Below are positions 52,922 through 57,698 of a DNA stretch of 64,000 bases, piece after piece. Within the stretch, counting starts at the first letter, position 1; each line of letters opens with the position of its first letter. The stretch comes from Paraburkholderia sp. HP33-1 (GTDB taxonomy: Bacteria > Pseudomonadota > Gammaproteobacteria > Burkholderiales > Burkholderiaceae), in the NCBI RefSeq assembly GCF_021390595.1, contig NZ_JAJEJR010000001.1, positions 2,790,001 to 2,854,000 of the forward strand, written 5' to 3'. A program made the position numbers and the translations under genes. The notes under the pieces were generated by a model. That model was not told the DNA's origin. It saw only the letters and a program-made list of their open reading frames with translations, and did not search any database.

Positions 52922-53353
52922 TTACGCCCGTTGCATGCCCGATTTCGTCCGTTCGACGAGTTCGAAGACGGCCATACCCGCCACCATGGCTGCGACGAAT
53001 CCAATGGCCTTCGGGTAGCCCGCACCGAGTGCGACCAGCGCGGGCCCCGGGCAAAAGCCCGCCAGGCCCCAACCGATACCGAAAGCGGCGCTACCGAGGA
53101 CAAGCCTTGGCGTAATCGCCGTGCTTGCCGGAAGCTGCACTGGCAAGCCTAGTAACGAGCGCTTGCGGCGTCTCGCGACGAAGAACGCCAGCGAAGCCAC
53201 GACGATGGCGCCGACCATCACGAACGCGAGTGAGGGGTCCCAACGACCGGCGATATCAAGGAAGCCCTGCACCTTCGCCGGGTTGCTCATACCAGAGACC
53301 ATCAGGCCAATGCCGAAAATCAGGCCCGAAAGCAGTGCTGTGAGGATTGCCAT
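52922..53353 (-). CDS. YeeE/YedE-family sulfur transport protein, second half (DUF6691/PmpB type)
   Basis: A 143-residue membrane protein of the YeeE/YedE (TsuA-like) family, one half of a split transporter. The motif [25 protein letters not shown] segment ([19 protein letters not shown]) carries the conserved Cys thought to pass persulfide or thiosulfate sulfur. Its ATG lies two bases inside the end of the preceding half (GGAGG upstream), so they are made together. Part of the bigR-controlled operon. Confidence 0.88.
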
Positions 53354-53354
53354 G

Positions 53355-53789
53355 TCAGCCTCCAATCAGGTGCCGTTGCACGAAAACAGTCAAAAAGCCC
53401 GCCGCCATGAAGGTCAGTGTGGCGACGAGCGAACGGAGCGAGCCGCGCGAAAGGCCGCACACGCCGTGGCCGCTCGTGCAGCCGCTGGCATAGCGGGTGC
53501 CAAGCCCCACCAGGAAGCCTGCAGCCAGGACGATGCCCCAGCTCGCCTCGATATCCGCAATTGCAGGCTTGCCAAGCAAGCCCGCAATCACAGGAGCGAT
53601 GATGAGGCCTGCGACAAACGCGAAGCGCCAGCCGATATCGTTGCGCGGCAGGCTCAACAGGCCGCCGAAGATGCCGCTGATGCCGGCGATGCGACCGTTG
53701 AACAGCACGAGCACGGCGGCTGCCAGCCCGATGATGAGCCCGCCGGCCAGCGAGAGACCGGGTGTGAAATGGGCAAGGTCAATCAGCAT
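53355..53789 (-). CDS. YeeE/YedE-family sulfur transport protein, first half (PmpA type)
   Basis: A 144-residue membrane protein, the partner of the next gene. The conserved Cys motif is [21 protein letters not shown] with two Cys. About four helices. It starts inside the end of bigR (7-bp overlap), and its stop overlaps the next start region. In Serratia and others the PmpR-PmpA-PmpB set has the same order: BigR-like regulator, then two YeeE halves. Confidence 0.9.
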
Positions 53790-54121
53790 GATTCGTCCCC
53801 TGAAGGATTGGTACAGAACTGTTGATAAAGCACGGCCATGACGGCGAGCGCCTGTGGACTCGCCACCGAATAGAAAATGTTCTTGCCCTCGCGGCGTGTG
53901 GCCACCAGGCCGTTTTCGCGAAGCACGCCCAGCTGCTGGGATAGGGTCGGCTGCAGGATGCCGAGCTCATCCTCGAGTTCGCTAACAGACAGTTCTCCTT
54001 GGGAGAGGCGGCACATCAGCAGCAGGCGGTCCGGGTTGGCGAGCACCTTGAGTAGCGCGCAGGCGTTCGTCGCGGCGGCCTGCATGGTGGCAAGGTCGAT
54101 GGTGGGGTGAGATGGGTCCAT
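53783..54121 (-). CDS. bigR: BigR/PmpR-type ArsR-family sulfide-responsive repressor
   Basis: Winged-helix repressor of 112 residues from ATG 54121 (117 from a TTG at 54136). Two Cys, in LLLMCRLSQGE and YQQFCTNP, are 66 residues apart, the spacing of the Cys pair that forms a polysulfide bridge in Xylella BigR. The recognition helix is LGILQPTLSQQLGVLR. No ribosome site is visible for either start, and a TATAAT on the minus strand lies only 15-30 bp before them, so the mRNA is nearly leaderless. It is first in an operon with two YeeE/YedE halves and sits at the operator described below. Confidence 0.9.
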   Translation of the reverse strand: MDPSHPTIDLATMQAAATNACALLKVLANPDRLLLMCRLSQGELSVSELEDELGILQPTLSQQLGVLRENGLVATRREGKNIFYSVASPQALAVMAVLYQQFCTNPSGDESC

Positions 54122-54134
54122 GGGGCGGTCATTC

Positions 54135-54184
54135 AATTCACAAGTAGATATTATACTAAAACATATAATATCTACTTGTGAATT
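54135..54184. promoter_or_regulatory. bigR operator: perfect 21-bp inverted repeat
   Basis: Left arm 54135-54155 (begins AATTCACAAGTAGAT), 8-nt spacer CTAAAACA, right arm 54164-54184, exact complement of the left. Each arm ends in TATAAT on the outgoing strand: minus strand 54155-54150 reading to bigR, plus strand 54164-54169 reading the other way. The AT-rich arms resemble BigR boxes. Confidence 0.85.
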
Positions 54185-54241: not shown

Positions 54242-56473
54242 TCAGAAGTATGACCGGAGTGTGCCGCGCCGACGGATGTCGAGGGTCGCACAATGGAAGG
54301 CGCCGCCGAACGGCCCGTAGCTGAGGAACGCACACGGAATCGGTTCGAACCCCCAGTTCCTGAACGCCTTGATCAGCGACACCTGGGACGCGTCGACGAT
54401 CACCCGGTTTTCGTCGAGCATCAACGTGTTGATACTGGTCCAGGGACTGCACATCGAGGCCTTCGACATGATCCCCTTGACCGGATCGGGGCGTGGGGCG
54501 ACCAGTACATCCCAGCTCTTCAGAATCGGTGGGAGCCGGTCAACGTCGATATAGTCCGGGTTGACCAGCACCTTGCCCGGACACAATGGACTAAAGCTGG
54601 AATCGATATGCATGGGCTGACGGCAACGGGTTTCAATCTCGTGAATGCGAAAGCCATCGCCAAGATGGCGCCGGAGCCATTCGATGCCGGCCCGGTTCGT
54701 GACGTTGGAGCGGGTGACGAACAGGTCGCGGCCGCAGCGCGTGAAATCGGCGGCGTCGAACACCGGCTCGAACTCGGTGATGATGTAGCGCAACGGCTCA
54801 GCCGCCCCCGGGATGCGGTAGTCGTAATCGAATAGCTCGTCGGTCAGCTGCGGCCGCGGAGCCGAGACCCAGCGGGCCCCGCTGCGAAAGTACTCCTTGA
54901 ATAGCGCACGGTACGCGTCGCCCTCGAAGTAGCGGGAACGCCAGCACATCGGCGTTTCGATGATCTCGTCGCCGATCACCAGGTATCCGTCACGCGGGCA
55001 GGACACGCAGAAGCCACGGCTGGACCACGAAGGCGTGCGAAAGCGGGCGCGATGGTTGACGACGGCGGGCCGGCGAACGGTTACACCTTCCCCTTCCAGG
55101 ATGCGGACGAACTCCTCGAGTTCCCTGGTCGCCCGATGGATCATCCACTTCGGATAGCGCCGGCCCCCAAAGACCCGGTGCAGTCTGGCGGTGAAGCTCG
55201 GCACGTCGAAGGTGACGGTCACGTGGAATGGAGGAATGACCGCTCCGTCGAGCCGTCCGACGATGACCTCTTCGAGCGGGTCCCACTCGTTCCACGAGTT
55301 GACGGGCTTGCTGCTTTCCGATGTCCGATCCGGTGACAGCGGAACGGTCATTGCTGGCTTAACCTGGATATCGATCTTAGATCCTGTCGGCTGTTCGTTG
55401 GCAAAACGAACTTGCGCATGACCATGTGATGCGGTTACGTCGGCCGACGCGGCCCCCACCCGGCGGCGCAACAGCAAGCGCCGCGTCTCCGTGAGGTGCC
55501 AGGCCAGTAGCCCGGGCAGCCCCAGCGCGACGTCGGGTACCCGCTTGACCAGCGACAGCGCAAGCGCTATCTCCGCAGGCAGCCCGTAGATGTGACCAAG
55601 GAGCAGGAAACCGCCCTCCTGAACGCCGATGGCGCCCGGCACGGGGAAGGCCGCATCGCGCACCGCCTGGCCGATGCTTTCCAGCACCAGCGCCTGCGCG
55701 ATGGTTGGCTCGGCACCCATGCACGTTAGCGCGATCCATATCTCCGCGACCCCGAAGACCCAGGCCGCCAGGTGGGCGAAGAGGGCACCCAGCATGGCCA
55801 ACCTGTTCGCGTGGATGCGCTGCAGGTTGTCGTGCAGCCGGATCTCGCTGCCGAACGATGCCTTCAACCAGCGGGCTGCCGCGAGCATGCCGCGCTCGAC
55901 CAGATCGAACAGGCTGAAGCGCTGTGCGACGTAGAAGCCGACGAGCGCCGCCGCTGCGATCAGCAGGCCGGTCGCCAGCCACTGTGCGATCGCGCCTGCA
56001 CGGCCGTCCGCAACGAGCAGCCCGAACCCCGCAACGGTAAACAGGAACTGGGCGAACGCCTGAATCAGCAGGTCGACAAGAATTGATGCGCCAGCAAGAC
56101 CGCCAGCCACACCCCAGAAGGTCAGCAGCCGCGCGCCGATCAGATCGCCACCGAACGACGCGACCGGAAGCAACACGTTGATCGCCTCTCGCACCCAGCG
56201 CAGGAATACGAACAGCCCGAAACCCCGCTGCGTCAGCGGGCGAACGAGACAGCCCCAAGCTACGCCGGTCAACCCCATGATGCCGGCGCGAATCGCCACG
56301 ATGGCGGCGATGCCCCAACCGACGCGGGCTATGGCATGCAGCACGAGTGTTGCATCGTTGGCGACGACCAGCACAACGGCTGCGATGAGCCCACAGGAAG
56401 TAACGACGACCGTACCGATCGCAATACTCCGGCTATTCTTCAGCGCGGGAATGTCTGTTTGAGTTTCGAACAA
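54242..56473 (-). CDS. HpnL-like membrane domain fused to a glycine amidinotransferase-type domain
   Basis: A 743-residue two-domain protein. Residues 1-335 are a membrane region with about eight helices and HpnL/lysylphosphatidylglycerol-synthase-TM motifs (FLRWVREAINVLLPVASFGGD at 90-110; LESIGQAVRDAAFPVPGAIG at 264-283). A linker of about 40 residues follows. Residues 375-743 form a complete amidinotransferase domain of the arginine:glycine (AGAT) type, with D573 (FDAADF), H622-I-D624, C728 (AFHCATLDIRRRGTL) as the catalytic triad. The start is a TTG with AGGAGG 4 nt upstream; an in-frame ATG at 55351 could start a separate amidinotransferase. It follows a radical SAM gene (58-bp gap). I know no characterised protein with this fusion. 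Product and substrate are unknown. Confidence 0.85.
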   Translation of the reverse strand: MFETQTDIPALKNSRSIAIGTVVVTSCGLIAAVVLVVANDATLVLHAIARVGWGIAAIVAIRAGIMGLTGVAWGCLVRPLTQRGFGLFVFLRWVREAINVLLPVASFGGDLIGARLLTFWGVAGGLAGASILVDLLIQAFAQFLFTVAGFGLLVADGRAGAIAQWLATGLLIAAAALVGFYVAQRFSLFDLVERGMLAAARWLKASFGSEIRLHDNLQRIHANRLAMLGALFAHLAAWVFGVAEIWIALTCMGAEPTIAQALVLESIGQAVRDAAFPVPGAIGVQEGGFLLLGHIYGLPAEIALALSLVKRVPDVALGLPGLLAWHLTETRRLLLRRRVGAASADVTASHGHAQVRFANEQPTGSKIDIQVKPAMTVPLSPDRTSESSKPVNSWNEWDPLEEVIVGRLDGAVIPPFHVTVTFDVPSFTARLHRVFGGRRYPKWMIHRATRELEEFVRILEGEGVTVRRPAVVNHRARFRTPSWSSRGFCVSCPRDGYLVIGDEIIETPMCWRSRYFEGDAYRALFKEYFRSGARWVSAPRPQLTDELFDYDYRIPGAAEPLRYIITEFEPVFDAADFTRCGRDLFVTRSNVTNRAGIEWLRRHLGDGFRIHEIETRCRQPMHIDSSFSPLCPGKVLVNPDYIDVDRLPPILKSWDVLVAPRPDPVKGIMSKASMCSPWTSINTLMLDENRVIVDASQVSLIKAFRNWGFEPIPCAFLSYGPFGGAFHCATLDIRRRGTLRSYF

Positions 56474-56531: not shown

Positions 56532-57698
56532 TTATTCGTTTTGCGGCGCCAAACTGCGTGCGCCGGGCCGTCCTGCTAACGAGGCCAGCGACGCCCGAGG
56601 CAATTCCTCAACGGCGAGCGCCCACAGGGAATACGCAACGCCGCGCTGGAACAACGAACTGACAGCAGCGCGAAACTCGCCCCTGCCGAGCGCGTACGCC
56701 GAGTCAGTCACTGCAATGGCGCCATGCATGAGGACACTGGCATGGCGGTAGCACCCCATCATGCAGGCATTGCAGGGCTCCCGATTGTCGGGCAGCCGGT
56801 CGAGGTCGAAGACGGAGCCCATCGGCTCAGGCCACGCCTCGCAACGCCAGATATCGAGGTTCCAGTCGATATAAAAATACTTGCTGCCACCGATACAGGG
56901 GATCAGTTGCTGTTCGCCGCGCACGAACCGCGCGACCTCGGCCAGCGCAGCGCTCGGGTCCATCACACGAAAATGCTTTTTGAGGCGCGCGATTGCGCTC
57001 AACGCTTCGAGCAGTTCGTCAGGGCTGAGATCGACGAGCGTCGATTTTTCGTCGTAAACAAGCGATGTGGAACCGAACGCCTCGCGTCGTGGATAGGAAA
57101 AAACGACGCTATCGAAGCCAAGCCGGTTGAGTGTCTCGGGAAGCAATTCGTAACGGACCAGACGGCTCACCGTAATCGATGCGCAGACCTCGATGCCGAA
57201 GCTATGCGCCTGAGCGATACCCTCGCGGATGCGAGCCTCCAGACCGCGCAGGCCGCGGTTGCGCTCGTGCTCACTCATGTCCGCACTATCGATGGAAATC
57301 AGAAGACGCTTGAGGCCAGCCGCCGCCAGTTCCTTGATGTGGCGGGGGAGAAACCAGCCGTTCGTGATCACGCCGCACTGGATGCCGGCCTTGGTGGCTG
57401 ACGCCACGAGCGATGCGATCTCGGGGTGAACCAGCGGTTCGCCTCCCTGCAGCGTCATGTAACGAATCCGGCGTCTGCGCAGGATCGGCAGCGCACGCGC
57501 GAACTCATCAGGATCGAGATAGCGACGCGGGCCCGCCAGGTTCTTTTCGCGCGAGAACCCGCAGAAGTCGCATGCGGCGTTGCAAACGTTCGTCACCGAT
57601 ACGTCACAGACCGCAGGAAGTGGATTCCTTGGCTCGCTTCCGACAGCGTCTACGCGCGGAAGATTGCGCCACTTGATGGTCCGCTCTGTCGTATCCAT
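56532..57698 (-). CDS. Radical SAM protein with C-terminal cysteine-rich (SPASM/Twitch-like) region
   Basis: Predicted Fe-S enzyme of 388 residues. The SAM-binding 4Fe-4S motif is C39-x3-C43-x2-C46, followed by GGE at 85-87 (LQGGEPLVHPEI) and a TIM-barrel body. A second set, C268, C286, C309, C312, C316, should hold an auxiliary cluster as in SPASM/Twitch enzymes. The ATG at 57698 has GAGG 5 nt upstream; a longer reading starts at 57755. It is upstream of the amidinotransferase fusion and very probably in one operon. It is not the B12-type HpnJ and does not match HpnH. The reaction is unknown; cell-surface lipid or peptide-like substrates are possible. Confidence 0.86.
   Translation of the reverse strand: MDTTERTIKWRNLPRVDAVGSEPRNPLPAVCDVSVTNVCNAACDFCGFSREKNLAGPRRYLDPDEFARALPILRRRRIRYMTLQGGEPLVHPEIASLVASATKAGIQCGVITNGWFLPRHIKELAAAGLKRLLISIDSADMSEHERNRGLRGLEARIREGIAQAHSFGIEVCASITVSRLVRYELLPETLNRLGFDSVVFSYPRREAFGSTSLVYDEKSTLVDLSPDELLEALSAIARLKKHFRVMDPSAALAEVARFVRGEQQLIPCIGGSKYFYIDWNLDIWRCEAWPEPMGSVFDLDRLPDNREPCNACMMGCYRHASVLMHGAIAVTDSAYALGRGEFRAAVSSLFQRGVAYSLWALAVEELPRASLASLAGRPGARSLAPQNE

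Follow-up and report, generated by a model that had tools for sequence, protein, structure and literature searches.

A gene fusion of an HpnL-type membrane domain and an amidinotransferase in Paraburkholderia, and its candidate role in hopanoid guanylation

Organization of the fusion gene

The DNA analysed here is a 64-kb stretch of the genome of the soil bacterium Paraburkholderia sp. HP33-1 (hereafter the window). On its minus strand, positions 54242–56473 hold a single uninterrupted frame of 743 codons plus stop, and the plus strand carries stops over the same interval. The frame opens with a TTG start codon at 56473, with the sequence AGGAGG four bases ahead of it. I define it as one gene from the open frame, this motif and the occurrence of the same fusion in P. 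translucens (L065) and in a Paraburkholderia MAG (L066, protein P0001). Three parts were delineated, all on the minus strand: an HpnL domain with a predicted MprF-like flippase fold (residues 1–336, positions 55466–56473), a linker that is mostly predicted disordered (residues 337–388, 55310–55465), and an amidinotransferase domain (residues 389–743, 54245–55309).

A domain search, as proposed in the preliminary description of this locus, identifies the N-terminal half: residues 22–329 match the HpnL model TIGR03476 (271.5 bits, for a curated cut-off of 195.65), and residues 29–312 match PF03706 (66.4 bits, cut-off 33.4). It was less informative for the C-terminal half, where no Pfam or NCBIfam family scores above its cut-off. 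Comparison with solved amidinotransferases, on the other hand, gave high scores for residues 388–743, namely 444.7 bits for SxtG, 335.7 for human AGAT, 331.1 for HsvA and 250.1 for StrB1. In the alignment, Asp573 (codon 54755–54757), His622 (54608–54610) and the nucleophile Cys728 (54290–54292) correspond to the catalytic triad D254, H303 and C407 of AGAT, and the protein ends on RRRGTL. The earlier reading of a single frame joining an HpnL-type membrane part to a full amidinotransferase, with this triad and this C-terminus, is thus borne out.

Structure prediction agrees with both assignments, giving an amidinotransferase fold for the C-terminal domain and a flippase-type membrane fold for the N-terminal domain. 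The top 50 Foldseek matches listed cover the C-terminal domain alone, and among the 50 VIA matches listed, those to the N-terminal domain are MprF entries. The predicted fold of this domain is therefore shared with the flippase-type membrane domain of MprF. However, the aminoacyl-transferase catalytic domain of MprF was not found in the fusion, where a Pfam search up to E 1 returned PF03706 only; its place is taken by an amidinotransferase, and the supposed lipid is a hopanoid. The N-terminal domain passes the curated HpnL cut-off, but unlike it, known HpnL proteins are separate proteins. An Arg-rich stretch closes the last membrane helix of this half, which suggests, from hydropathy and charge only, that the enzyme half lies on the cytoplasmic side.

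In order to compare catalytic pockets, I used an alignment of 35 near relatives (42 rows minus 7 distant ones). The Asp-His-Cys triad is invariant in all 35, as are D495 (AGAT D170) and M621 (AGAT M302), while at the position of AGAT D305, 34 rows have Asp and the MAG fusion (G010) has Asn. The residue corresponding to AGAT Arg322, presumably the contact for the substrate carboxylate, is Tyr641 in the window and Tyr in 32 of the 35 rows, with Phe, His and Cys once each, so that the pocket would differ from that of AGAT. Compared with human AGAT (1jdw), which is without an HpnL half, N300 is also replaced, by Gln619. The description of the enzyme as AGAT-type is therefore only loosely right: the closest solved relative is SxtG (PDB 6u1r), and AGAT proper, with glycine as acceptor, is made less likely by the loss of R322. 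According to its PDB title SxtG belongs to saxitoxin biosynthesis; the 6u1r entry has no membrane domain, and SxtG is not known to be linked to hopanoids. StrB1, which guanylates a cyclitol amine, provides a chemical precedent.

On one side of the fusion, positions 52922–54136 of the minus strand encode, by eye, an ArsR-like regulator and two small membrane proteins resembling YeeE/YedE sulfur transporters. Directly upstream lies a gene for a radical SAM protein (56532–57698, minus strand; PF04055, 89.9 bits), which was assigned a start at an ATG, codon 20 of a 407-codon frame, and has a Cys-rich, SPASM-like C-terminal end. It lies ahead of HpnL not only in the window but also in Burkholderia sp. 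H160 (L063) and P. translucens. In the MAG it is on a different contig from the fusion, and it was found in 6 of 35 genomes of the genus, plus a fragment in G032; among 398 genomes sampled across the phylum, only the window's own gave a match at E 1e-40. Patchy in the genus, confined to it among the genomes searched and absent beside the MAG fusion, it is not supported as a fixed part of the unit. In G009, though, it adjoins a separate HpnL gene, and the radical SAM protein is a possible, if uncertain, partner of HpnL or of the fusion.

Distribution and state of the fused form

Among 144 Paraburkholderia genomes, a full-length match to the fusion was found in three: the window's own, P. translucens (G1010; 743 codons, 88% identity) and the MAG (G010; 735 amino acids, 75%). 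The preliminary description had noted that two ordinary adjacent genes might lie here if relatives lacked the fusion. The search found it in relatives, and for these three genomes the open fused frame rejects that reading. Three more of the 144 genomes have partial or distant matches. P. adhaesiva (G910, L064) matches residues 354–743 with one stop, thus possessing enzyme and linker but no HpnL; G961 matches residues 11–389, corresponding to HpnL and linker with one internal stop, and no amidinotransferase match is present within the 18 kb examined around this remnant; G963 encodes an amidinotransferase at 46%. In Burkholderia sp. H160, one absent base, which DNA alignment places at about 55452–55460 in the window's linker, splits HpnL (340 amino acids) from the enzyme in two frames; this break may be biology or a sequencing error. 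At the loci examined outside Paraburkholderia, HpnL and the enzyme are encoded separately, or the enzyme stands without HpnL beside it.

Both domains appear to be under constraint. Between the window and P. translucens or the MAG respectively, dN/dS is 0.14 and 0.21 for the HpnL domain and 0.30 and 0.13 for the amidinotransferase domain, while the linker shows 0.43 and 0.68. The linker is 28% identical between the window and the MAG, its residues 344–385 have a pLDDT below 50, and it contains an in-frame ATG at residue 375 (55349–55351). The two halves could be made as two proteins, either from this internal start or because the record holds a frame error, and the fusion would have no significance in itself; the split frames of H160, the lack of HpnL in P. 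adhaesiva and the stand-alone enzyme domains of other bacteria would all be in line with this. I nonetheless consider it unlikely, since the fused frame is open in three species down to 75% identity with dN/dS of 0.13–0.30 in both domains, and since P. adhaesiva and the G961 remnant, with only one half left apiece, still retain linker sequence.

When about 5.8 billion proteins were searched, restricted to lengths of 0.55–1.75 times the query and with the best 8000 candidates scored, one full-length fusion was listed besides the window's, that of the MAG (P0001). Taken together, the distribution in the genus, the dN/dS values and this search indicate a fused form that is selected, rare, and broken or lost in some relatives. 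As far as searched, it is confined to Paraburkholderia.

Other fusions were seen among the protein matches listed: HpnL-type domains joined to a CDP-alcohol phosphatidyltransferase (P0008, whose Pfam pair occurs in at least six further listed proteins) and to a sulfotransferase (P0011). These suggest that the HpnL domain may be a platform for lipid head-group enzymes.

Hopanoid genes around the enzyme relatives

I next consider the gene neighbourhoods of the enzyme. The domain alignment was scanned against one genome per species, which gave at least 586 stretches that include at least 556 relatives; the analysis covers the best 80 of these relatives. Among these best 80 of at least 556 loci, HpnL lies within 1.5 kb of the enzyme in 73 (68 divergent, 5 co-directional), HpnJ is in the stretch at 68, and hpnL, hpnI and hpnJ are found together in 66; for the loci outside Paraburkholderia, HpnL is within 1.5 kb in 70 of 76, as a separate gene. 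The closest relatives in this set thus adjoin hpnL, most of them within the Methylobacterium hpnL-M-I-J-K neighbourhood. At one further locus (L094) HpnL is 3.7 kb away, and at six of the best 80 the stretch is free of hpn genes (L064, L068, L070, L071, L074 and L127). By rank, four Paraburkholderia/Burkholderia loci come first, followed by Acetobacteraceae, Sphingomonas, Hyphomicrobiaceae, Syntrophobacteraceae and Enterovirga, above all those of Methylobacterium/Methylorubrum.

The 62 loci of Methylobacterium/Methylorubrum type among the best 80, one of them a family-level MAG, form one related group and are not independent. The layout varies between lineages: enzyme and hpnL are divergent in Methylobacterium, L075, L069 and Sphingomonas (where hpnI and hpnJ are turned round), co-directional in L087, L067 and G135, and fused in Paraburkholderia. 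Because one group dominates the raw count, a partnership that survives such rearrangement is the better evidence. The hpn family identities were confirmed with curated models in Methylorubrum rhodinum (L103; HpnN, HpnK, HpnJ, HpnI and HpnL, with HpnM below cut-off), in L075 (squalene-hopene cyclase, HpnH and HpnK), in G135, L087 and L067 (HpnL), and in the window's genome.

Across genomes, the enzyme also co-occurs with HpnJ. Of the 80 loci, 22 were submitted to an HpnJ genome search covering 21 genomes (L063 being outside it), and HpnJ was found in 19 of the 21, in 18 over cut-off and in G079 split over two contigs. The Acetobacteraceae MAG G062 has the enzyme, with HpnJ, HpnI and HpnH not found, while Crenalkalicoccus (G066) has the enzyme, HpnH and HpnI, with HpnJ not found, a gene set that would fit guanylated bacteriohopanetetrol (BHT) glucosamine. 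In the class sample of G075 (142 genomes), two genomes have the enzyme (the seed and G135) and 12 have HpnJ, among them the two with the enzyme. Ten of these 12 HpnJ genomes are without the enzyme, as expected if the lipid is rarer than BHT cyclitol ether. A phylum sample of G069 (297 genomes, L127 enzyme as query, E 1e-80) returned the enzyme in three, one being the seed; G411 has HpnJ and HpnI over cut-off, and G515, which has the enzyme, shows HpnJ below cut-off only and leaves HpnI and HpnH unmatched. The proposal of the preliminary description that a membrane lipid, conceivably a hopanoid (a sterol-like lipid of bacteria), is guanylated gains support from the hpnL neighbourhoods and from this co-occurrence, both of them genomic evidence.

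In the window's own genome, the HpnL half of the fusion has no hpn neighbour within the 64 kb. About 1 Mb away, at C1:1.852–1.861 Mb, lie hpnJ, hpnI and a canonical hpnL, followed by a second hpnI and hpnK, with hpnH on C2; HpnJ, HpnI (twice), HpnK and HpnH are all over cut-off, so these four substrate genes are present. The two HpnI genes (G000:C1:1852908–1853945 and 1858231–1859346; L158) flank a response regulator gene and one resembling a sensor kinase.

In an amidinotransferase tree of 42 rows, the Paraburkholderia copies branch near Acetobacteraceae, within a group made up largely of Alphaproteobacteria; with support of 93/88 and 81/22 on the forks concerned, their exact sister is unsure. 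In an HpnL tree, in which two rows are short fragments and one row was left out, the window's HpnL clusters with the copies of this unit in other Paraburkholderia and separately from the canonical HpnL of its own genome. The codon fit of the fusion is weak, by a home-made score trained partly on the genes it judges. The amidinotransferase tree position and this codon fit suggest that Paraburkholderia probably acquired enzyme and HpnL as a pair, which were fused later.

One locus directs attention to a different acceptor. In G036 (L061, C89 2347–3462), a 59% relative of the enzyme lies among arnT-, arnB-, arnC-, arnA- and arnD-like genes, most of them below their equivalog cut-offs, and this genome is without HpnH, HpnI and HpnJ over cut-off. 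The L061 enzyme may have as its acceptor a 4-amino sugar carried by lipid A or undecaprenyl phosphate. By extension, the fusion could act on a membrane amine other than that of a hopanoid, for instance aminoarabinose on either carrier, and the link to hopanoid genes would be secondary. This is improbable for the window's enzyme, whose group is tied to hpnL and hpnJ; L061 lies on a long branch outside the group found beside hpnL.

Relatives of 65–67% identity to the window's domain also exist elsewhere. The conjugative plasmids of Bradyrhizobium carry them at L162 8947–10071 and L163 8953–10116, with hpn genes absent from the neighbourhood, and the plasmid tblastn further returned a 48% Streptomyces copy and two unannotated records. 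The other cases are the cyanobacterial amidinotransferases P0139, P0149 and P0153 (Xenococcaceae, Prochloraceae and Chlorogloeopsis). Standing alone, the Bradyrhizobium copies would suit an enzyme whose guanidino product is soluble, its acceptor being glycine, a polyamine or a free aminocyclitol and HpnL just an anchor or exporter; the solved relatives AGAT, HsvA and StrB1 act on soluble amines. I give this little credence, in view of the repeated company of hpnL, hpnI, hpnJ and hpnK, the chemistry of the known guanidine lipid, and the loss of AGAT R322.

A candidate enzyme for guanidine hopanoids

A guanidine-substituted BHT cyclitol ether is known chemically. PMC5642901 traces its first description to methylotrophs (with a 1985 reference to Methylobacterium organophilum), reports it also from Zymomonas mobilis, Geobacter sulfurreducens, an enrichment of Gloeocapsa and the study's own strains of Dolichospermum and Aphanizomenon, and discusses it as a possible marker lipid of Geobacter and cyanobacteria; the cyanobacterial relatives noted above fit these reports. 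The Methylobacterium group of this first description is also the one to which 62 of the best 80 enzyme loci belong. According to PMC5358736, M. extorquens AM1 makes both BHT cyclitol ether and the guanidine-bearing form of it from adenosylhopane. PMC12583986 attributes BHT cyclitol ether to HpnI, HpnK and HpnJ, treats the function of hpnL as not established, and sees no obvious candidates near hpn clusters besides hpnA, B, L and M. In searches of the open-licence literature, no paper that pairs a hopanoid with an amidinotransferase was found, none of those listed assigns, by title or abstract, a gene to the guanidine step of BHT cyclitol ether, and none was found to name the fusion gene.

PMC12583986 is a 2025 lipid survey of 54 Alphaproteobacteria strains that includes four species with an enzyme locus: E. 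rhinocerotis (L094), M. soli (L076), M. oxalidis (L083) and M. rhodesianum (L119). Despite this, the string 'guanid' is absent from its main text, which either counts against the hopanoid reading or mirrors the survey method.

I propose that the fusion encodes a membrane-bound hopanoid guanidylase, transferring the amidino group of arginine to BHT cyclitol ether, or to BHT glucosamine, with the HpnL half as anchor and perhaps flippase; I would put the probability of this reading at roughly three in four. The hopanoid target is supported by the company of hpnL, hpnI, hpnJ and hpnK in relatives and by the co-occurrence with HpnJ. Against it count the distance of about 1 Mb between the fusion and its own hpn cluster, the loci and genomes where hpn genes were not found (the Bradyrhizobium plasmids, G062 and G515 among them), the kinship of the 62 Methylobacterium-type loci and the Asn of the MAG fusion. 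AGAT forms an amidino-enzyme intermediate and then transfers the group to an amine. By analogy, on the cytoplasmic side, Cys728, assisted by His622 and Asp573, would attack a guanidine donor, most likely L-arginine, and load its amidino group to form an amidino-enzyme, with release of ornithine if arginine donates. The group would then pass to a primary amine in the head group of a hopanoid. BHT cyclitol ether bears an amine and would be the most likely acceptor, BHT glucosamine being the alternative; guanylation would add 42.02 Da (CH2N2). The HpnL domain would hold the enzyme at the site of substrate synthesis, and may also present the cationic lipid or flip it. In hopanoid makers such as Methylobacterium, the same roles would fall to separate adjacent genes: in the guanidine-BHT cyclitol ether pathway of Methylobacterium, the enzyme relatives adjoin hpnL near hpnI, hpnJ and hpnK, while the fused form is found, as far as searched, in Paraburkholderia only.

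A stronger version would make the protein a complete "MprF of hopanoids", in which the amidinotransferase guanylates the head group of BHT cyclitol ether at the cytoplasmic face and HpnL flips the cationic hopanoid outward. I hold this version only tentatively, and doubt it more than I credit it; if true, it would supply the enzyme still missing for guanidine-substituted hopanoids and make HpnL a flippase of head-group-modified hopanoids.

The idea of a guanylated hopanoid has good support from gene context. More widely, one gene family emerges as a candidate for making guanidine hopanoids, built from known kinds of parts and with HpnL as its usual neighbour. The amidinotransferase group is a strong candidate for the guanidine step, one that can be named, deleted and assayed. 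If this is right, genomes could predict the makers of guanidine-BHT cyclitol ether, and HpnL would gain a testable role. The design known from MprF, in which an enzyme that adds charge is joined to a lipid flippase, would then reach beyond phospholipids to hopanoids.
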